From: a virus
Reading direction: 5' to 3' (one strand)
Virus record (IMG/VR): IMGVR_UViG_3300021961_000044
Location: 1-64,000 of that record
Length of the DNA: 64,000 nucleotides
The notes under the pieces were generated by a model that was given only the letters and a program-made list of their open reading frames with translations, made no database searches and was not told the DNA's origin. This document shows positions 2 to 64,000 of this stretch, piece by piece. The first letter of the stretch is position 1. Every line of letters begins with the position of its first letter. A program made the position numbers and the translations under genes.

Positions 2-220
2 CTCGACGTTTCTTATAACGGTTGGGAAAATTACGAGACCTGGAATGTTGCTCTGTGGATCAACAATGACGAGGGTTTGTATCACCTTGCTATGGAGTGT
101 GGTGACTATCAATCCTTCTGTGATTACGTCGGTTCAGATGCAAAAACAGGTGACGGGGTTAAGTATAATGACCCCAAGGTAAATGTCATCCAGATCAATA
201 GCGATGTGTTCGACCTCTAA
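2..220 (+). CDS. Conserved phage protein, 5'-truncated (NYETWNVALW family)
   Basis: The reading frame is open from base 2, so the start lies outside the window; 72 residues are visible before TAA. The segment NGWENYETWNVALWINND is the hallmark of a small acidic protein family that is widespread in phages and of unknown function. The product is soluble, with no signal peptide or membrane segment. It runs in the same direction as every other gene here and is followed by 70 bases of non-coding sequence. Family assignment is from recall of the motif; no function can be given. Confidence 0.75.
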   Translation, partial: LDVSYNGWENYETWNVALWINNDEGLYHLAMECGDYQSFCDYVGSDAKTGDGVKYNDPKVNVIQINSDVFDL

Positions 221-290
221 GTAACACTCACTCCTGTCGCATGAGTATAAACTAGGCACCACACAGTTAACAACACTTTTCTTCGTTATT

Positions 291-428
291 ATGTCCAAGT
301 CCGTGATGCTTTCTCTTCTGGGTCGTGCTAACAATGGCACTGAAATCCTGGAGATTCTTGATAGTCTCACCGAAGACAATCAGCAGTCTGATGATAATGG
401 TCCTACGCTGAATCCCATCGATTTCTGA
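291..428 (+). CDS. Small conserved cyanophage protein (45 aa)
   Basis: ATG-initiated 45-residue frame beginning MSKSVMLSLLGRANNGTE and ending PTLNPIDF. A short helical N-terminal half (LLGRANNGTEILEILDSL) is followed by an acidic, Asn/Gln-rich tail. Similar tiny proteins with a SLLxRxNNGxEIL core occur in cyanomyoviruses as hypothetical proteins, which is why I accept so short a frame. The Shine-Dalgarno signal is poor. The function is unknown. It sits in the 70-200 base spaced, probably early-expressed set of small genes at this end of the window. Confidence 0.6.
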   Translation: MSKSVMLSLLGRANNGTEILEILDSLTEDNQQSDDNGPTLNPIDF

Positions 429-446
429 TAGTAACTGTGCGGGGGG

Positions 447-476
447 TTGACATCAGTCAGTCTCCCGTATTATAAT
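447..476 (+). promoter_or_regulatory. Consensus sigma70-type promoter
   Basis: A perfect TTGACA (447-452) is separated by 18 bases from a perfect TATAAT (471-476). Initiation would fall near 483. This is the expected form of a phage early promoter read by the host housekeeping RNA polymerase before late sigma gp55 is made. The first downstream gene starts at 632, leaving a leader of about 150 bases. Confidence 0.8.
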
Positions 477-507
477 AGCAGAGTATCAGTGAAACAACAG
501 TGTTTTA

Positions 508-2656: not shown

Positions 2657-4582
2657 ATGACACTTCAAAACTTTACTTCACTAGACTTTGATCAAATAAA
2701 AGCGCTTCTGATTGAGTACATACGATCAGATCCAAATTTTACTGATTATGATTTTGAAGGATCTAACCTAAGTTCGATCATTAATTTGATGGCATATAAC
2801 ACATATGTCTCATCTTATAATGCGAACATGCTTGCGAATGAGGTATTTCTTGAGTCTGCTACACTCAGAGAAAACGTAGTTGCACTTGCAAGATCAATTG
2901 GATATACTCCAAGATCAAGAAGAGCAGCAAGAGCAACTGTAAGTTTTTTCGTTGATTGTACTGGTATTACTCCTGTTCCAACATCTCTAACACTGCAAAG
3001 AGGAATTGTTGCTGCATCCACAGGAAACTTTGCCAATCAAAGTTTTGTATTCTCAAGACCAGAAGATACAACAGTCGCAGTTGTAAATGGAATTGCATCT
3101 TTCGATGAACTAGAAATATGCGAGGGAAATAGAATTAGACAGGAATATACAGTAAATTCAACAAATCCAAATCAACGTTTTATTATTGATAATGTTGGGG
3201 TTGATACAGATACTTTAGTTGTAAGGGTTAAAGATTCGACAGCATCTACCACATGGGTATATTATCATCGCAAAGATGATCTTTTTGGATTGAATAGTGA
3301 GTCTAAAATCTTCTTCTTACAAGAGATTGAAGATGAAAGATATGAAATTACCTTTGGTGATGGCATTTTTGGTAAGAAATTGCAGGAAGGTAACATCATT
3401 GAGGCAGTTTATATTACATCTAACGGCGATAGTGCCAATGGAGTTAGTAATTTTGCCTTCAGTGGACGCCTTGTATACACCAGAAACGGTATAGAGTACG
3501 TAGTTTCTTCTGGAATTTCGATTTTAGGCACTGATCTTGGAGCTGCTGGCGGAGATTCTATCGAATCAATCGAGTCAATTCGTAAATTTGCACCAAAAAT
3601 CTACTCATCACAGAACAGAGCACTCACAGCATCCGACTATGAAGTGCTAATTCCATCAAAAGTTTACCCAGAAACCGAATCTATCTCTGTTTTTGGTGGA
3701 GAAGACCTAGTTCCACCTCAATATGGAAAGGTTTTTATCAGCATTAAACCCAAATTTGGCGATTTTCTTCCAAATTTGATCAAACAAGACATTGTTAGGG
3801 AGTTGAAAAAGTACTCTGTAGCGGGAATTGTCCCAGAAATCCTTGATTTGAAGTATCTTTACCTTGAAACTGAGTCTCAAGTGTATTATAACACAAATCA
3901 AGCGGCAAATGCAGCGGAACTTTCATCAATTATTCGCGGAAACGTTGAAAAATATGCAGATTCTACTGAATTAAACAGATATGGAGCAAGATTTAAGTAT
4001 AGTAAGTTCCAAAAAATCATTGATGACAGTAATCAAGCAATAACATCGAATATTACGAAGATTAGAATGAGAAGAGATCTTCGTGTGCTGTTAAATACTT
4101 TTGCAGAATATCAAATTGGTTTCGGCAATCAATTTTATATTGGCAATTTGACTGGATATAATATTAAATCAACCGCGTTTAGAGTTCAAGGAATCACTGG
4201 TGATGTATATCTTTCCGATATTCCAGATTCGGATAGACTAAATGGTTCTATTTTCTTATTCAATGTTCCTTCTCCAAATTCTAACGCTGTTACCATCAGA
4301 AAAAGAAATGTCGGAAGAATTGACTACGTAAATGGTATTATTACCTTAAGTGCGATAAACATCCAATCTGGAAAAGAAAAGGATGGTCAACAAATTATAG
4401 AAATTTCCGCAATTCCACAATCCAATGATGTTGTTGGTTTTCAAGATCTTTATTTGCAATTAGATGTTTCTAAGAGCACTATTGAAATGGTATCAGACAA
4501 TATTGCATCGGGTCTTGATGTTTCAGGATCTAACTATATCGTATCCTCTAGTTACACCACTGGGAATTTAGTAAGAGTATAA
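2657..4582 (+). CDS. 6: Baseplate wedge subunit gp6
   Basis: 641 residues, close to T4 gp6 (660). gp6 belongs to the baseplate J-like superfamily and forms the iris-like ring that connects wedges and opens during contraction. The N-terminus (QIKALLIEYIRSDPNFTDYD) and the segment DSIESIESIRKFAPKIY with SSQNRALTASDYEVLI (about residues 298-335) are typical of J-like baseplate proteins. The C-terminal 200 residues are beta-rich and less recognisable. It begins at the base after the gp25 stop and ends three bases before the gp7-like gene, so the three are one operon read from the late promoter at 2220. Confidence 0.92.
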   Translation: MTLQNFTSLDFDQIKALLIEYIRSDPNFTDYDFEGSNLSSIINLMAYNTYVSSYNANMLANEVFLESATLRENVVALARSIGYTPRSRRAARATVSFFVDCTGITPVPTSLTLQRGIVAASTGNFANQSFVFSRPEDTTVAVVNGIASFDELEICEGNRIRQEYTVNSTNPNQRFIIDNVGVDTDTLVVRVKDSTASTTWVYYHRKDDLFGLNSESKIFFLQEIEDERYEITFGDGIFGKKLQEGNIIEAVYITSNGDSANGVSNFAFSGRLVYTRNGIEYVVSSGISILGTDLGAAGGDSIESIESIRKFAPKIYSSQNRALTASDYEVLIPSKVYPETESISVFGGEDLVPPQYGKVFISIKPKFGDFLPNLIKQDIVRELKKYSVAGIVPEILDLKYLYLETESQVYYNTNQAANAAELSSIIRGNVEKYADSTELNRYGARFKYSKFQKIIDDSNQAITSNITKIRMRRDLRVLLNTFAEYQIGFGNQFYIGNLTGYNIKSTAFRVQGITGDVYLSDIPDSDRLNGSIFLFNVPSPNSNAVTIRKRNVGRIDYVNGIITLSAINIQSGKEKDGQQIIEISAIPQSNDVVGFQDLYLQLDVSKSTIEMVSDNIASGLDVSGSNYIVSSSYTTGNLVRV

Positions 4583-4585
4583 AGA

Positions 4586-7500
4586 ATGACAAGCAGCAGA
4601 ATCAAATTCAATCAAATCGTAGCCGATCAATTCCCTACGTATATCAGAGAAGAATTTCCAGCAGTACAAGAATTCTTTACCAAGTATTACTTGTCACAGG
4701 AATATCCTGGTGGAGCGCTGGATCTGTTAAACAACATTGACAAATATAATAGTATCGAAGAAGTTTCTGATCGATATGTTAATGATGCAGAACTAACTTT
4801 GCCTATAGGACTTTTTGATACTGAGATTAATGTTGCATCTACACAGGGATTTCCTGATAACTATGGTTTAATTAAAGTTGATAATGAATTAATTCTTTAT
4901 ACAGAGAAAAGTAACATTCAATTTAAAGGATGTGTTAGGGGATTCTTAGGGATTACCTCTTACGAAGACCCTTTAAATCCAGAGAATTTTATTTTTTCAA
5001 CATCTAATCAAGAAAAGCATGATCTTCAATATAGTCCAGAAGGTGTTGGACTAAAAAGAGTAACAAATTTAAGTGCTCTTTTCTTAAAAGAATTTTTCAA
5101 AAAAGTAAAATATAGACTTGCTCCTGGGTTTGAGAATAGAGAATTATTTTCTGGAACAGACGAAGAAACTAATAAAGAGATTGCAATAAAACAGTCTCGA
5201 TTTATTAAACAAATAAAAGATTTTTACAAAACAAGAGGAACAGACGAATCCTTTAAAATTTTGTTTAAAGCTCTTTATGGAGAAAAAGCTGAGATAGTCA
5301 GACCAAAAGAGTTTTTATTCAGACCATCTGATTCTCAATTTCAAGTTACTAAAGATTTTATTGTAACTCCAATTAGCGGAAATCCTGCAGAATTGGAGAG
5401 AAATACACTTCAGCAAGATGAGTATAAGGATATAACTAGAGCATATGCTCCTGTTGCTAAAGTAGAAAAAGTTACAACAGGTTTTACAACTTCAAACTAC
5501 TGGAGAGTTAGTATTGATGCGAATTATGATAGAGATATCATAATAAATGGATCCATCTATGGTAATTTTAAAGCACATGCCAAAACAAAAGTAATAGGAA
5601 ATATTTCAGCAGGATCTAGTTATATTGATGTCGATTCAACACTGGGATTTCCTCAAGATGGAGAATTGTATGTTGCTTATTCTGATGGAACTGTTGGTGT
5701 AGTAACATACAAAAATAAATCATTAACTCAATTTTTTGATTGTACTAATATAACAAATACCATTAAAGATACTGAAAATATTTTTATTAATACTTATGCA
5801 TATGGATATTCAAATGTAGATCAATCCCTTATCAAAGTAAGAATCACTCCAGTATTAGAAAATCCATCGGAAAATACAAATAACCATTATTATGAAAATG
5901 GAGAACTGATTGATATTAAGTCATTAGGAGAAGATGCTTCAACGAACGATATTTGGACAATTAATTCCAGTCCAACATATCAGGTAAAAAGTGTTTCTTT
6001 AGTAGATTCTCAACAAAAGTTATATTCTATTTCCACTTTTGATACAATTCTGTTAAAAATAGGAAATACTATCTCGATTGAAGATACCACAGGAACAAAA
6101 ACAGAAGCAGTAGTATTTGATATTACATCTGCCAATGCTTTAAGTGTGAGATCAGATACTCTATTGGATGTAAACAAAAAATATACTTTTACTAAAAAGT
6201 TGTCAAAAGTTAATGCAACTTATTTTACAAATATATCCCACTTAAATTCAAATGTAGAAAATGTTTATATTGATGGAAATAAAACTCTTATAGCGTCTCC
6301 ATCTATACCATCATATAGAAATCAACCACTTGACGTAACTTCCAAAAAAATTATATTTTCTGGAACATTTCCTCCTGTAGGTGTTGGATCTACCAACACC
6401 TACAATATTTCTCCACTTAAAGATCATGGTTTTTATACTGGCGATGCAGTATATTATTCTTTCCCAGTAAAAGAAACCTTAGATACTTTCTCTGGAGTTA
6501 CTCAAACTACATATCCAGAAGGAAATTTGGGAAGTAACTTCGAAGAGGGATTATACTTTATTAAAAGAATAGATGAAAATAATGTTCAATTTGCAAAAGG
6601 AAGATCTGATCTTTTCTATGGAAATTTTGTAAGTACACCATCTCCAGTAACTATCACTGGACAAGTACTTGAAGTTTATAATTTGAAAGGAAAAACTTTA
6701 GGAACGCAAAAACTCCTTAGAGAAATTTCCAAACCAGAAAAAGATGGCAAAAAATATGAGACCACTCCAGGAACTAAGACAGGCATATTTGTTAATGGAG
6801 TAGAACTTCAAAACTACAAATCAACTGATACTGTATATTATGGGTCTATCCAAAAAATTGACGTATCTGCTCCTGGAGAGGATTATGATATTATTAATCC
6901 GCCAATTTTGCACATTAGTGATTCTGTAGGGACAGGGGCTACTGGTTATGTTTCTGTTTCGGGTTCTTTAAAAGAACTTAGAATAATTTCACCAGGATTT
7001 AATTATATTGAAACTCCAGTCATCAAAGTAACTGGTGGAAATGGAACAGGAGCAAAAGCGGCTGTTAAATTAAATCAAGTTACTCATTATATAAATTTCA
7101 ATTCAACTGTTCTTGGACAAAAAGTAGGCATAGGAACAACTGTATCTACAATTGGTTTTACTACATATCATAAGTTTACAAATGCAGAAAAAGTTCTATA
7201 CAAAAATAATGGAGGGCAGGTAATTTCTGGTCTTTCTACCAATTCTGTCTATTATGTAAACGTTGTCGATCCTTATACCGTAAAACTACACCAAACAGAA
7301 AATCAAGCAGTACTTGGAGTCGGAACTGTTGTTTTACTTGACTATGGAACAGGAAATCATACACTCGAATCAGTATCCAAGAAAAATGTAATTTCAAAAA
7401 TAAACATAATTTCTGAAGGTCAAGGATATACTAATAGAAAACTAACAACTGGAATTGTAGGAATTAATACCGCGAGTAATACTATTACTATTCCAAATCA

Positions 7501-36084: not shown

Positions 36085-39000
36085 ATGGCAACAAGAATTC
36101 AAATAAGAAGAGGCACTGCCGCTGCATGGACCTCAGCTAACCCTATTCTTGCCGAGGGTGAACTTGGCGTAGAGTTAGATACACAGAAATTTAAAATTGG
36201 TATTGGAACAACCAGTTGGAGTGGTCTAAGTTATGCAACTGGTATTCAAGGAACCACTGGTGCCCAGGGAATCCAAGGAACAACAGGTATCCAAGGGGAT
36301 ACTGGTATTCAAGGCATTACTGGTAGAGGTCTGAATATTGTAGGAAACGTTGCTACAGTTGGAGATCTCCCAGATCCCTATAGTGGATCTATTGGAGATG
36401 CTTATGTTGTAACAGGAACAGGCGATCTTCACGTTTATAATGGAACGAGTTTCGATAACGTTGGACAAATTGTTGGTCCTCAAGGAACCACTGGCGCTCA
36501 AGGAACCCAGGGTATCCAAGGCGAATCAATTCAAGGTACAACTGGATATAATGGTACCCAAGGAACTCAGGGTATTCAGGGTGATGATGGTGCTCAAGGA
36601 ATTGCTGGTGCCTTCGCTGCACAAGGTATTCAAGGAACCCAAGGTATTCAAGGTAGAGAACCTGATGTAGCACAAACAGAAAAAAATACAATTACCTTTT
36701 CTGCTACTGAAGGTCAAGTATCTTTTGGAGCAACATACGTTCCAAATGCGATTGATGTTTATCTGAATGGTGTCAGATTATCAGAATCGGAATATGTAGG
36801 AACAAGTGGAACTCACATTCTTCTTAATGATGGTGCTAATATAGGGGATGTTTTAGATCTCGTTAAATTTGACTTTGGTAATGCTTTTAGAGGTCTTCAA
36901 GGCGTACAAGGTCTTCAAGGATTACAAGGAGTTCAGGGTCTTCAAGGACCACAGGGAACAACTGGTATTCAAGGTGATGTTGGTATTCAAGGAAGTACTG
37001 GTGCTCAGGGAACTCAGGGAGTCCAAGGAACAACTGGTATCCAAGGTGATGTTGGTACCCAAGGAACTCAAGGGGTTCAAGGTGTTCAAGGCGAAATTGG
37101 ATCTCAGGGTCTTGATGGTGCATATGCAGCACAAGGTATCCAAGGCATCCAAGGTATTCAAGGTTTAACACCTGACGTTGCTCAAACAAGCAAGACAACA
37201 ATTAGTTTTTCTGCCAATGAAGGTCAAACTTCTTTTGCAGGAACATATGTAGCAGGAGCAATAGACGTATTCTTAAATGGCGTAAGATTATCAGAATCGG
37301 AATACGTAGGAACAAGTGCAACTAATATCGTCTTAAACGACCCTGCTAACGCTGGAGACGTACTTGATCTTGTTAAGTTTGATTTTGGTAATGCTCTGAG
37401 AGGTTTGCAAGGTGTTCAAGGAACACAAGGTATTCAGGGCGATCTTGGTATTCAGGGTATTCAAGGTCTTGACGGTGCTTATGCCGCTCAAGGTATCCAA
37501 GGTCCACAAGGTACTGATGGTGTTCAAGGAACAAGTGGTCGTGGTGTTACCATTCTTGGTAGTGTTTCTACATCTACAAATCTTCCAGGATATCCAACTT
37601 CTTATGGTGGATCTGTTGGTGATGGATATATCACTTTAGACACAGGTCACTTATGGACTTGGAACGGTAGTTCTTGGGACGATGTTGGTAACATCACAGG
37701 TCCACAAGGAACTACTGGAACACAGGGAACTCGTGGTATTCAGGGAACTACTGGTTCTCAGGGTCAAACAGGTATTCAGGGCGACTTAGGTATCCAAGGT
37801 ATTCAAGGAGAGGCATTACAGGGCGTTCAGGGGACGACTGGTATTCAAGGTGATCTTGGCATTCAGGGCGCTACTGGTGCTGGTATACAAGGTGCTACTG
37901 GCACTCAAGGTGAAACAGGTACTCAAGGTACAACAGGTACTCAAGGTCTTGATGGTGCCTTTGCTGCACAAGGTATCCAAGGTATTCAAGGTATCCAGGG
38001 TTTAACACCTGACGTTGCTCAAACAAGTAAGTCAACCATCACATTCTCCGCTAATGAAGGACAAACTTCTTTTGCTGGAACATATGTAGCGGGAGCTATT
38101 GATGTTTATTTGAATGGTGTTAGATTATCCGATTCTGAATATGTTGGAACAAGTGCAACCAATATTGTTCTCAACGATCCCGCCAACGCTGGAGACGTAC
38201 TTGATCTTGTCAAGTTTGATTTTGGTAATGCATTAAGAGGTCTTCAGGGAATTCAAGGAACAACTGGTATTCAAGGTTTTACTGGTATCCAGGGAAGTGA
38301 TGGTGCCCAGGGTCTTGCTGGTGAATATGCAGCACAAGGTATTCAAGGTACTGATGGTTCACAAGGTACCGATGGTACTCAAGGAACTACAGGACCTCAA
38401 GGAACCACTGGAACTCAAGGAACCACTGGAACTCAGGGAACACAAGGTATTCAAGGTGACAGTGGTCGTGGTGTTACTATTCTCGGTAGTGTTTCGACAT
38501 ATACAAGTCTTCCAGGATATCCAACTTCTTATAGTGGAAATATTGGAGATGGATACATTACTACCAATACTGGTCACTTATGGACTTGGAACGGTAGTTC
38601 TTGGGACGATGTTGGTAACATCACAGGTCCACAAGGAACTACGGGAACGCAAGGAACTCAGGGTGTACAGGGACCTTCAATTCAAGGTGCTCAAGGAACA
38701 ACTGGAATTCAGGGAACAACTGGAACTCAGGGAACTACAGGTCCACAAGGAACTACAGGTTTACAGGGAACTACAGGTCTCCAAGGTTTAACTGGTATTC
38801 AAGGAGACACAGGTCTTCAAGGTTTAACTGGTGTTCAGGGAACGGACGGTCTTGGAGCACTTACAGGAGTTACATCTGTAACTAGTGGAACATTCTTCCC
38901 ACTTTTCGTTTCTGGAACTGGAGATGTTTCTCCAAATATCAGAACAGAAGCAACCGCATTTGGTTATGACGCAGGAACCAACACTGTTACTGCCACAAAC

Positions 39001-58852: not shown

Positions 58853-60551
58853 AAAAATTCGTTGGAAAAACTTTTTGTCAACGGGCAATCAATTTACTGA
58901 AATTAATTTATCCAATAAATCTACAACTCTGGTTGTAGGTACTAATGGTGCTGGAAAGAGTACAGTTTTGGATGCACTTACTTTTTCTTTGTTCGGCAAA
59001 CCATATAGAAAAATCAATAAACCACAACTTTCTAATTCCGTGAATGAAAAAGATTGTGTTGTTGAAATTGAATTTACTATTGGTCCTTCCAAATGGAAAA
59101 TAATTCGTGGAATCAAACCAAATAAATTCGAGATTTATAAAAATGATAATCTATTGAATCAAGACGCAAGTATTATTGATCAACAAAAATGGTTTGAGCA
59201 AAATGTCTTAAAAATGAACTATAAGTCTTTTACTCAAATTGTAATTTTGGGTAGCAGCACTTTTGTTCCATTTATGCAACTTTCCGCTTCTCATCGAAGA
59301 GAAGTGATTGAGGATCTTCTGGATATTAAAATATTCTCTTCAATGAGTAATATTTTGAAAGAAAAAATTCGTGATGTTAGGGAAGAAATTAAAGTCCTTG
59401 AACTTAAAAAAGAATCTCTCAAGGATAAAGTTGAAATGCAAAACAACTTTATAGAAGAATTGGAGAATCGCGGTAAAGAAAATATAAATCAGAAAAAACA
59501 TATTATAGAAAGTCTTATTAGTGAAGAAACTCTTTTGATGAATTCAAATGCTTCTATTGAGGAAGATATTTTTAAACTCACAAAGGATCTTGAAGATGTT
59601 TCTGGAGCAACAGAAAAACTTCGTAGACTTGGTGGACTCAAAGGAAAAATCTCACAAAAAGTATCAAACATTACAACAGAACATAAATTTTTTACAGAAA
59701 ATACGGTATGCCCTACATGTACGCAATCTATTGATGAAGAGTTTCGCCTAAATAGAATTAAGGACGCTCAAGATAAAGCAAAGGAGTTGCAGTCTGGTTA
59801 CAAAGAACTAGAGGAGGCAATTAAAGAGGAGGAAGAGCGAGAGCGTCATTTTTCCATTTTATCTAAGGAGATTACTTCTTTAACACATGGCATTTCTAAA
59901 AACAATACTAAGATATCTGGATGTCAACGACAGATCAGAGATCTGGAATCGGAAATTCAGAGAATTACCGATCAACTTGAAAACAGAAATACTGAACATG
60001 AGAAGTTAGAAACTTTTAAAAAAAATTTAATAACAACGGATAATTCTCTTTTTGAATACAAAGAGAATTTATCTAACTATAATTTTTCTTTTTCCCTACT
60101 CAAAGATGGAGGGGTTAAAGGAAATATTATTAAAAAATATCTTCCTCTGATAAATCAGCAAGTAAACAGATACTTGCAGATGATGGACTTCTATATTAAT
60201 TTTACTCTTGATGAGGAGTTTAATGAAACTGTAGAATCTCCTATTCATGAGAATTTTTCATATTCATCTTTTAGTGAAGGCGAAAAGATGAGAATCGATC
60301 TCTCTCTTCTGTTTACTTGGAGAGAAGTTGCTAGAATGAAAAATTCTATCAACACAAATCTTCTCATAATGGATGAAGTGTTTGATAGTTCTCTGGATGG
60401 TTTTGGTACAGATGAATTTTTAAAAATCATTCGGTTTGTCATCAAAGACGCTAACATTTTTGTTATATCCCATAAAACAGGAATGGAAGACAAGTTTGAT
60501 GATGTAATTAAATTTGAAAAAGTTAAAGGATTTAGTAGAGTGGCATTATGA
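58839..60551 (+). CDS. 46: Recombination nuclease subunit gp46 (Rad50-like)
   Basis: ABC-type SMC/Rad50 ATPase. Walker A GTNGAGKST at 34-42; long coiled coil from about residue 165 to 455 broken by the zinc hook C291-P-T-C294; ABC signature FSEGEKMR beginning at F478; Walker B LLIMDEVFD with D512-E513. 570 residues (T4: 560). The start lies 14 bases inside the preceding gene in another frame (MIIFEKIRWKNFLST), the expected N-terminus of the family. Its stop overlaps the next gene by four bases. Confidence 0.96.
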   Translation: MIIFEKIRWKNFLSTGNQFTEINLSNKSTTLVVGTNGAGKSTVLDALTFSLFGKPYRKINKPQLSNSVNEKDCVVEIEFTIGPSKWKIIRGIKPNKFEIYKNDNLLNQDASIIDQQKWFEQNVLKMNYKSFTQIVILGSSTFVPFMQLSASHRREVIEDLLDIKIFSSMSNILKEKIRDVREEIKVLELKKESLKDKVEMQNNFIEELENRGKENINQKKHIIESLISEETLLMNSNASIEEDIFKLTKDLEDVSGATEKLRRLGGLKGKISQKVSNITTEHKFFTENTVCPTCTQSIDEEFRLNRIKDAQDKAKELQSGYKELEEAIKEEEERERHFSILSKEITSLTHGISKNNTKISGCQRQIRDLESEIQRITDQLENRNTEHEKLETFKKNLITTDNSLFEYKENLSNYNFSFSLLKDGGVKGNIIKKYLPLINQQVNRYLQMMDFYINFTLDEEFNETVESPIHENFSYSSFSEGEKMRIDLSLLFTWREVARMKNSINTNLLIMDEVFDSSLDGFGTDEFLKIIRFVIKDANIFVISHKTGMEDKFDDVIKFEKVKGFSRVAL

Positions 60552-61342
60552 TTGAAATTGGTATTGTAGGAAACGGTTTTGTTGGAAATGCAGTCTATCA
60601 AAACTTCAGAGATAAAGTATCAACAAAAGTTTTTGATGTAGACAAGAACAGATCTCTCAATACTTTTGAAGAAATTTTGGAATGTGATTACATTTTTCTT
60701 TGTTTGCCGACACCAATGAGATTTGGTGGAGAATGTGATGTTTCCATTCTTGACAACTTCTTCGAATCTTTGCCTGATAATGTTCCAGGCACTTTTATTA
60801 TCAAATCTACAGTTCCAGTAGGAACTACTAAGAAATATGCTGAAAGGCATAATGTCATTCATAATCCAGAATTTCTTACCGCTAGAAATGCTGTTCAAGA
60901 CTTTGCAAATTCGGAAAGAAATGTGATTGGTGGCGATCTTGAATTGTGTCAAGACTTTGCAAGCATGTTCCACACTTGCTTCCCCCATATTCCGAATCAT
61001 ATTGTTACTTCTGATGAAAGTGAAACAATTAAATATTTTTCAAATACTTTTCTCGCATATAAAGTTGCATATTTTAATAAGATGTATGACTTTTGCGAAA
61101 AACATGGAATGAACTACGATGTAGTCTGTGACGGTGTTACTGCTGACAGTAGAATTGGAAAATCACACACAAGAGTCCCTGGAGTGGATACTGATCGTGG
61201 ATTTGGAGGAACCTGTTTCCCCAAAGATCTGAATTCCCTCATAGTTCAAATGGAAGAAGTTGGTGTGAACGCTGATATGCTAAAATCTGTTTGGGAATAC
61301 AATCAACAAATACGAAAGGTCATAGACTGGCCAGTTACCTAA
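60548..61342 (+). CDS. UDP-glucose 6-dehydrogenase-like protein, short form (264 aa)
   Basis: NAD-dependent nucleotide-sugar dehydrogenase fold. The Rossmann motif is IGIVGNGFVG (residues 4-13); STVPVGTTKKY (about 89), HNPEFLTARNA (about 105), and the catalytic Cys motif GFGGTCFPKDL with C223 are all kept. Cellular UDP-glucose dehydrogenases have about 390-450 residues with a C-terminal UDP-sugar domain; this frame stops soon after the central helical domain, so the C-terminal domain is missing. It could be a minimal enzyme or have an altered function. It overlaps gp46 by four bases. An auxiliary metabolic gene, presumably of bacterial origin; a link with the glycosyltransferase at 1228 is possible. 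Confidence 0.82.
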   Translation: MIEIGIVGNGFVGNAVYQNFRDKVSTKVFDVDKNRSLNTFEEILECDYIFLCLPTPMRFGGECDVSILDNFFESLPDNVPGTFIIKSTVPVGTTKKYAERHNVIHNPEFLTARNAVQDFANSERNVIGGDLELCQDFASMFHTCFPHIPNHIVTSDESETIKYFSNTFLAYKVAYFNKMYDFCEKHGMNYDVVCDGVTADSRIGKSHTRVPGVDTDRGFGGTCFPKDLNSLIVQMEEVGVNADMLKSVWEYNQQIRKVIDWPVT

Positions 61343-61546
61343 ATGACTACTCCAAATTGGCAACATCACTCCAAGAAAGAACAAAAAAGAAAATTAAAAC
61401 CGCAAGCATTAAGGTCTAGACGCGAAGCGTTAAGACACTTTAAGAAGAAGCACATGGGTCGTCCTAAGGGCGACCTTTCGTCGTATTATGGATTCATACG
61501 AAACGAGGACCATGATCTCACACGAAATCAAATCTCAACTTGCTAA
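61343..61546 (+). CDS. Small basic protein (67 aa)
   Basis: 67 residues, rich in Lys, Arg and His (KKEQKRKLKPQALRSRREAL, HFKKKHMGRPKGDLSSYYGF). The ATG follows the previous stop directly. The last 35 bases overlap the metalloprotease-like gene in another frame. Conserved small proteins with MGRPKGDLSSYYG are known from cyanomyoviruses, from recall. The charge suggests nucleic-acid or ribosome contact; unproven. Confidence 0.68.
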   Translation: MTTPNWQHHSKKEQKRKLKPQALRSRREALRHFKKKHMGRPKGDLSSYYGFIRNEDHDLTRNQISTC

Positions 61547-62078
61547 ACTTCTTGCTACGGAAGATCTGATTGTAGAGAATCGTAAGGTTGAAACGGCACA
61601 GTTTAATGTTCATACTCGTGTACTGACTCTTCCTATCTGGAGTAAAGCTAGTAATACTGTATATGATCTTCTTGTTGGACATGAAGTCGGTCATGCACTT
61701 TTTACCCCAGATGAGGATCTTCCAAAAACTATTCCTCACCAATTCATCAATGTAGTTGAAGATGCTCGTATTGAGAAATTGATGAAACGAAAGTATCCTG
61801 GTCTTGCTAAAACTTTTTTTGGTGGATATAAAGAATTGAACGAAGAAGATTTCTTCAATCTTGAAGATGAAGATATTTCTTCAATGAATCTTGCTGACCG
61901 AGCAAACCTTTTGTTTAAAATCGGCAATCATATTCAGATTCCTATTGAGTCTGGAGAAGAAACTGAAATCATCAATATGATTGAGAGACTGAAACTTTTA
62001 CTGATGTTCTCCTCGCAGCAGAAGCACTCTATAAGTTCTGTAAGCAAAAACAGCAGGAAGAAACTAAGATTCCTATAA
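61512..62078 (+). pseudogene. HExxH/VWA (CobT-like) gene, 5' part before a frameshift
   Basis: The first half of what is one gene in related phages. It carries a zinc-protease-type motif HEVGHALFTPDEDLP (His-Glu-x-x-His, about residue 59) followed by NVVEDARIEKLMKRKYPGL, a likely third ligand region. The start is the ATG preceded by GAGG at 61512; an ATG at 61488 lies in frame upstream. True coding leaves this frame near 61990: after RL the correct continuation ETFTDVLLAAEALYKFCK is found in the -1 frame, so the last 30 residues of this frame are out of phase. One missing G after CTG at 61990 would explain it. Confidence 0.72.
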
Positions 62079-62290
62079 ATTCGCTCGAATCTCAGCAGAG
62101 TGGTGGCAACCAACCTGCCTCTGACTTCTCCGATCAACCTGAGGGTGAGAATGAAAGTGATCAGGAAAAACCTGGTGAAACTGATTCTTATGGTGGAACA
62201 GCTAATAGCGAATCTCCAACAACAACTCCTTCTTCTGCTGGGGATTCTAGTGAACCAGAAGTAAAAACTGCGGAAAGTCTTGAAGATAGT

Positions 62291-63664
62291 TTGAAAAATC
62301 TTATCGATTCTGGAGCATGTGACAATGTTTATGTTGAACTTCCAAAATTGAATTTGGATACTGTTATTGCCAGCAACAAAGATGTTCATAATATCATCAA
62401 TAGTCATTTTGTTTCTCAACTGAAAAAATGGGAACGATTCGACACAGATGGTAGTCCTTTTGCAGAAAAAGATGCAGAATATCTTTCATTTAAGAAGTCT
62501 GCTCAAAAAGAAGTTAATTATCTTGTAAAAGAATTCGAGTGCCGCAAAGCAGCAGATTCTTATTCTCGTTCTACCACTGCTCGCACTGGTATTTTAGATT
62601 GCACCAAACTTCACACTTATAAGTATAATGAAGATCTATTCAGGAAAGTTTCCGTTATTCCTGATGGAAAAAATCATGGACTTGTATTTGTCCTTGATTG
62701 GTCTGGATCTATGGGTCAGGTAATGCTTGACACTATCAAGCAACTCTATAATCTGATTTGGTTTTGTAAGAAAGTTTCTATTCCTTTTGAAGTATATGCC
62801 TTCACATGCGAGTGGAAACGCCCGTTCTATGACGAATTGTTGGACAAGTATACTCCAGCTAATATTCAACCTCACTTTGAAAAGAAAGAAAATCTTCTGT
62901 TAGTTGATGAAACTTTTTGTATGATGAATCTTTTTACTAGCAAAGTAAAGGCAAATCAACTTGAAGACCAAATGCTTAATATTTGGAGAGTTTCTTGTTA
63001 TTTTTCAGGTTCTCGTTCTCTTTACACTATTCCAGATCAGTTGTCTCTTTCTGGAACTCCTCTGAATGAGTCTTTGATTGCTCTGCATCAAATTCTTCCT
63101 AAGTTTCAAAAGGAGAATAAACTTCAAAAAGTCCAATGTGTTATTTTGACTGATGGTGAAGCTAGTCCATTGAATAGAGTTGTATCTGTTCAACGTGATT
63201 GGGAAAAAGAACCTTATCTTGGATCTAGACGTTTGATTCCAGACATTACTTTTGTTCGTGATCGTAAACTTGGAACAACATATAGGGTGGAATATCAATA
63301 CCATAAGTTTACAGATCTTCTTCTCAATAATTTGAAAGATAATTTTTCGTATGTTAATTTTATTGGTATTCGTGTTCTTTCTTCCAGAGATGTGAATTCA
63401 TTTATTCGTTTGCATTTATCATACGATTCCAAAGAATTTCAAAAAATTCAAACCGATTGGAAAAAGCAAAGAAGTTTTAATATTAATAATTCTGGGTATG
63501 ATGCATACTTCGGAATTTCTGCAACTTCTTTGTCTCAGGATTCTGAATTTGAAGTGAATGATGGTGCAACAAAAGCGCAAATCAAATCCGCTTTTGTTAA
63601 ATCTTTGAAAACAAAAAAACTAAATAAAAAAGTTCTTGGCGAATTTATTTCTTTGGTGGTGTAA
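62291..63664 (+). pseudogene. HExxH/VWA (CobT-like) gene, 3' part after a frameshift
   Basis: This frame is open from 61985 and continues the upstream gene; the TTG at 62291 is the first usable start codon, but the protein-like sequence begins near 61990 (TFTDVLLAAEALYKFCK, then a Gln/Ser/Glu-rich linker). It holds a von Willebrand A domain with MIDAS motif D136-W-S-G-S (VFVLDWSGSMG) and a later VILTDGEA. Together the two parts would make about 715 residues. The HExxH plus VWA layout beside cobS is the CobT-like/MoxR-partner arrangement of cyanomyoviruses. The stop is TAA, next to the following ATG. Confidence 0.78.
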
Positions 63665-63876: not shown

Positions 63877-64000
63877 ATGGCAATCTCTTCTGAGTACATT
63901 CGCACTTCTTTAAAAGCAACTTACGGAGAGTCTGTGACTACTGCTGATATTCGTGCATGGTGCGCTTTGAATGATAACAACTATCAAACCGTTACCAAAA
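63877..64000 (+). CDS. cobS: CobS-like AAA+ ATPase, 3'-truncated by the window
   Basis: Forty-one residues are visible before the window ends: MAISSEYIRTSLKATYGESV then TTADIRAWCALNDNNYQTVT. This is the N-terminal recognition domain of the CobS proteins of cyanomyoviruses (IRTSLKATxG, TTADIRxWC, NYQTVTK). The AAA+ core with Walker motifs would lie beyond 64000. CobS is the MoxR-type ATPase of the aerobic cobaltochelatase, and phages keep it next to a CobT-like VWA protein, exactly as here. The identity is firm by motif recall, but the ATPase part is unseen. Confidence 0.75.
   Translation, partial: MAISSEYIRTSLKATYGESVTTADIRAWCALNDNNYQTVTK

Follow-up and report, generated by a model that had tools for sequence, protein, structure and literature searches.

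A CobT-like gene, known as 'peptidase' in cyanophages, is interrupted by a one-base frame break in the given sequence of the viral record IMGVR_UViG_3300021961_000044, of which positions 1–64,000 were analyzed (64,000 nucleotides, referred to here as the window). The gene belongs to PHROG 459 and is normally a single ORF in T4-like cyanophages; we consider it likely that the break is a one-base deletion at position 61983 of this contig's copy, and that it is either an artefact of the assembly or the consensus or a minor variant chosen by the assembler. The virus itself would then make one protein of about 717 residues, and this protein would form a working MoxR-VWA pair with a CobS/NorQ-like AAA+ ATPase, whose gene is the second one downstream.

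The listed ORF lies on the plus strand, as do the other parts of the gene and the ATPase gene described below, spans positions 61488 to 62078 and encodes HEVGHALFTPDED. It begins with an upstream, in-frame ATG at 61488, and homology points to ATG 61512 as the start, because this codon is equivalent to the one at which the relatives start. The stretch from 61512 to 61982 carries the N-terminal part of the gene in its proper frame, as judged from the ORF and from its match to PHROG 459, and here the expected protein, HEVGHALF...EIINMI, can be followed up to I165 (61980–61982). The damaged codon comes next (61983–61984), and from 61983 onwards frame 0 specifies an out-of-frame tail of 31 residues that has no counterpart among relatives and whose stop codon ends at 62078. 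The remainder of the gene is found in the −1 frame, which opens just past a TGA at 61982–61984 and stays open for 559 codons, from 61985 to 63664; it reads ETETFTDVLLAAEALYKFCK... and then proceeds, according to ORF, profile and structural model, through the end of the N-terminal domain and a linker into a VWA domain with the motif DWSGSM. Apart from the one-base gap, the gene does not show any decay. A first-pass annotation made from the sequence alone had correctly recognized the open −1 frame between 61985 and 63664; its reading of the first frame as HEVGHALF...EIINMIERL is right as far as EIINMI, whereas the residues ERL, which follow 61982, are already out of frame.

The position of the lesion emerged from comparison with a near-identical contig, IMGVR_UViG_3300021962_000096 (64,990 bp), which aligns to window positions 1–62032 with 33 substitutions and two gaps. 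The first of these gaps is a single base at 61983, and the second contig is open across the site, reading ...EIINMI-(one residue)-ETETFTDVLLAAEALY up to its end at window position 62032. The single lost base postulated by the first-pass annotation is therefore real in the sense of this alignment, but it is not a G missing from the CTG (61989–61991) in front of AAAC, as had been proposed; the gap is located 8 nt further upstream. The same annotation had left the choice between an assembly error and a mutation, and this is in agreement with a deletion that is seen in one contig only. The near-identical contig stops 49 nt past the gap, and these 49 nt are identical in both contigs. The contig end may mark a spot that is hard to assemble, an idea that is only suggestive as the coincidence was noticed after the fact. 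An apparent clustering of contig ends near the linker, inspected by eye, is disregarded here since it is biased by how the loci were chosen. The second gap, at position 285, and 12 of the 33 substitutions fall within the first 500 bases of the record (window 128–496), where either the end of the contig is of poor quality or the two sequences have diverged locally. Among the other 21 substitutions, located beyond position 500, 16 are synonymous and five nonsynonymous when counted in the longest open frame, and the two contigs thus appear to stem from real strains that diverged under purifying selection. A 24-base pattern spanning the junction retrieved this one near-identical contig only, and one 24-base pattern downstream of the site retrieved no near-identical contig, in a collection that may omit records very near the genome of the window, so that further copies may exist.

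The wider set of relatives gave a uniform picture. We collected 163 loci, consisting of the best 80 from each of two viral-contig scans (160) plus three cultured phages, a sample that leans to near relatives and contains some contigs twice. Ten loci (L002, L039, L091, L114, L131, L139, L144, L153, L160 and L161) do not extend over both test positions and are outside the junction count, L002 having been compared directly. All of the 153 loci that cover the junction, corresponding to 123 distinct DNA sequences from the best 80 per scan and the three cultured phages, run through it in one frame. The arrangement that the first-pass annotation had named as its own refutation, relatives with two separate genes at the same junction, was accordingly encountered in none of these 153 loci. 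In the same best-80 sample, 150 loci reach residue 700, and the gene is in one frame in 147 of them (126 distinct gene sequences); the exceptions among these 150 full-length loci, the IMG/VR loci L032, L048 and L068, are broken elsewhere in the gene, so that sporadic breaks can be regarded as the background of this collection. The full-length relatives read ...NMI-(one residue)-ETETF..., with exactly one residue between the equivalents of the two window pieces in 142 of 147 cases and none in five, which means that one codon is damaged in the window.

A BLAST search detected similar DNA in 440 phage records, invariably at 60–80% identity, and 13 of these records, from cultured cyanophages, were examined (S-SRM01, S-SKS1, Bellamy, S-SM2, S-SCSM1, S-T4, SynMITS9220M01, S-SCSM2R, P-SSM2, S-B43, DSL-LC03, Sf-CH5 and Sf-FS3). 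HEVGH and DWSGSM reside in one ORF of 695–752 codons, measured from stop to stop, in all 13, and this ORF is annotated as one CDS in 12; in S-SKS1 it is open without annotation. In the latter phage (L171, HQ633071) the CobT-like gene is open from about 2966 to 5080 with no annotated CDS, and the long stretch at 5424–6667, the expected CobS-like position, is likewise devoid of an annotated CDS. The deletion was seen in no contig other than the one studied here, and we attribute it neither to programmed frameshifting nor to a fission of the gene that relatives would share.

Programmed −1 ribosomal frameshifting has been described for chlD, the magnesium chelatase relative of cobT (PMC9227772), and this precedent, together with a partial slippery stretch, CAAAAAC, in frame at 62045–62051, is what could be put forward for recoding in the present gene. 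This stretch is the nearest approach to a slippery site, as the overlap of the two frames does not contain any XXXYYYZ heptamer, and a shift at 62045 would introduce about 20 wrong residues. Two 100-nt stretches were inspected for a stimulatory RNA fold, and both lie within 0.5 SD of 200 mononucleotide shuffles in a calculation that covers folds other than pseudoknots (61997–62096: −15.4 versus −14.2 ± 3.1 kcal/mol; 62053–62152: −22.8 versus −21.0 ± 3.8 kcal/mol). A frame change is conserved in none of the 153 junction-covering loci of the best-80 scan sample, nor is a shift needed in the near-identical contig. With no heptamer, folds like those of shuffled sequences and no examined relative in need of a shift, we reject recoding as exceedingly improbable; the absence of a slippery heptamer and the improbability of programmed frameshifting had both been anticipated in the first-pass annotation.

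Another possibility is a gene fission yielding two products, with the VWA part re-initiated within the −1 frame. There is a precedent in the haloarchaeal virus HHTV-2, in which, according to PMC8651126, cobT is divided over two ORFs and the vWA part has an ORF of its own, and the −1 frame of the window has indeed remained open. However, its first ATG, GTG or TTG codon past 61985 is a TTG at 62291–62293, 102 codons into the frame, where no clear ribosome-binding site is seen, and re-initiation would need this or a later codon. Furthermore, in the model of a relative (L082, see below) the break falls within the N-terminal domain instead of the linker, and fission is absent from the 153 junction-covering loci of the best-80 scan sample as well as from the near-identical contig. 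Fission is therefore very unlikely, and the same low likelihood attaches to the notion that a real break in a core CobT-like gene represents the first step of fission, with a VWA part made from TTG 62291 acting together with the CobS-like ATPase.

A chimeric contig, in which two viruses were joined near the site, would be in line with the end of the near-identical contig 49 nt past the gap and with the weak correlation between the identities of the N-part and the VWA-part of the window over its relatives (Spearman 0.14, p 0.085; calculated for the window only). This explanation conflicts with the identity of the 49 nt in both contigs, with an ordinary mean residual of VWA-part identity given N-part identity (rank 101 of 147), and with gene order, which agrees with that of S-SRM01 on both sides; we deem its probability minimal. 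We thus discard both a fission of the gene and a chimeric assembly after testing them against the contig comparison, the relatives, S-SRM01, the identity residuals and the structural model.

What then is the origin of the deletion? When the complete 92,986-bp record was compared with ORFs of at least 70 codons taken from 100 kb of S-SRM01, matches were obtained for 79 of these ORFs, some of which are antisense or nested and do not represent genes; the CobT-like gene was the sole one split between frames among those matched. With no further frame break detected, an overall low sequence quality can be dismissed as the cause. The site at 61983 is not in a long homopolymer either, and an indel error is thus not specially expected there. 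Both observations are compatible with a real, recent frameshift mutation, by which the lineage would carry a null (truncated) allele, and the same applies to the absence of decay beyond the gap and to the 33 substitutions that separate the two contigs as distinct strains and make a private mutation possible. On the other hand, every junction-covering locus of the best-80 scan sample has an uninterrupted gene at the site, PMC8651126 assigns the gene to the core genome of cyanophages, and most of the remaining differences between the two strains are synonymous. Since only a single near-identical contig is available at the site, the decision between an artefact and a real mutation rests on base rates. 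An artefact is probably the cause, and a genuine recent null allele is the less likely explanation, to which we assign a limited though real chance.

The region preceding the CobT-like gene contains a short gene for a nucleotide-sugar dehydrogenase (60548–61342, 264 aa), situated between gp46 and the CobT-like gene, that matches PF00984 and part of PF03721 without a match to a C-terminal domain. Far upstream, at 36500–38850, the window harbors coding repeats of the Gly-X-Y type in many copies, often 18 nt apart, and blocks of 300 nt recur there at distances of 510, 837 and 927 nt; going by the letters, these repeats look collagen-like.

The two window pieces together cover the profile of PHROG 459 ('peptidase', 736 positions): the first aligns to positions 1–159 (E 1.1e-82) and the second to positions 160–735 (E 1.2e-177). 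The break at 61983 is the reason why the window copy is not the single ORF typical of PHROG 459/T4-GC146. HEVGH and DWSGSM are present in the window pieces, and the residues H58, E59 and H62 as well as D395, S397 and S399 are invariant in 36 relatives. Going by the HExxH residues, the protein may be a zinc metalloprotease, an assignment that we treat as putative. No Pfam family was matched by the N-terminal piece at E values up to 1, and the second piece matched UPF0164 only (E 0.036); on the 36 relatives Pfam yielded scattered weak matches, among them VWA_2 in two of the 36 (best E 0.075). A profile search of PDB sequences found none at E up to 1.

A structural model was calculated from the 36 aligned relatives for L082, the full-length relative with the most identical residues (mean pLDDT 70.4, pTM 0.57). 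In this model the N-terminal part, which contains the HExxH residues, is helical and is connected to a VWA domain by a linker predicted with low confidence (187–256). The damaged codon corresponds to L082 residue 159, which lies between helices 150–159 and 164–186 (block means near 90), about 27 residues ahead of the disordered linker. As this residue is inside the N-terminal part, the break would, according to the model, remove the last helix of this part and would not cleanly part the two halves. This speaks against the first-pass view that the HExxH half is separated from the VWA half, while the fused product of about 715 residues predicted there comes very close to the roughly 717 residues counted from ATG 61512. 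Structural matches, obtained by rescoring Foldseek's own matches and covering residues 265–719 of the L082 model, are headed by NorD of NorQD (9qh6_G, Z 14.3, rmsd 4.3, 247 aligned residues, 13% identity), followed by the MIDAS domain of midasin (8ql1_C, Z 13.8, rmsd 4.1, 224 aligned). NorD VWA chains occupy ranks 1 and 3–6 (Z 14.3 to 12.6), and other VWA proteins mostly score Z 10–11. The model thus predicts a NorD-like VWA fold for this relative.

A CobS-like partner gene is close by. The gene next but one downstream (63877–64980 of the record, of which 63877–64000 lies in the window) encodes an AAA+ ATPase, as indicated by its ORF and by matches to AAA_5 (E 8.3e-17) and CbbQ_C (E 1.7e-5); it also matches TIGR01650 (E 9.7e-20), yet with 71 bits against a cut-off of 558.55. 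This neighborhood resembles that of cyanophage 'peptidase' genes (S-SM2 SSM2_133, P-SSM2 PSSM2_150, S-SRM01 QPX48195.1), whose profile is matched end-to-end by the two window pieces. The 'peptidase' gene lies within a few genes past gp46 in S-SM2, P-SSM2, S-SRM01 and Bellamy, and in S-SRM01, Bellamy, S-SM2, SynMITS9220M01 and S-B43 the first or second gene downstream of it encodes a CobS-like or MoxR ATPase. The difference is that these genes are single ORFs whereas the window copy is broken at 61983.

With NorD-NorQ, the latter a MoxR-type AAA+ protein, and with midasin/Rea1, the gene shares the VWA half, as judged by the matches of L082, and the proximity to a CbbQ_C-bearing AAA+ ATPase; unlike them, with which identity amounts to 11–15%, the cyanophage protein carries an HExxH domain and a disordered linker in front. 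The C-terminal VWA domain with its MIDAS motif and the CobS-like neighbor are reminiscent of CobT of the cobaltochelatase CobNST, as are a match to PHROG 5298 ('cobalamin biosynthesis protein', E 1.4e-6) and weak matches to NCBIfam TIGR02442, which 28 of the 36 relatives show with E values of 3.7e-5 at best. In contrast to CobT, HExxH is invariant across the 36 relatives, L082 attains 22.4 bits where the TIGR02442 cut-off is 779.45, and the CobT model TIGR01651 was found in one of the 36 relatives scanned (E 0.038). The 36 relatives thus remain far below the curated NCBIfam cut-offs for cobaltochelatase. Judging from these comparisons, the pair may take part either in the synthesis of cobalamin or in some other remodelling task of the MoxR-VWA kind.

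The interrupted gene is a known one and occurs widely, and a new mechanism is most likely not involved here. PMC8651126 already states that the label 'peptidase' hides a CobT-like VWA protein that partners an ATPase of the CobS type; the pair is named cobST in PMC8651126 and PMC9503304, and cobS is listed among cyanophage core genes in PMC3037559. The apparent split should be annotated as a single gene carrying a frameshift specific to this contig, rather than as a pair of genes or as recoding. If the deletion is real, it would constitute a null allele that arose naturally in a core gene of cyanophages.
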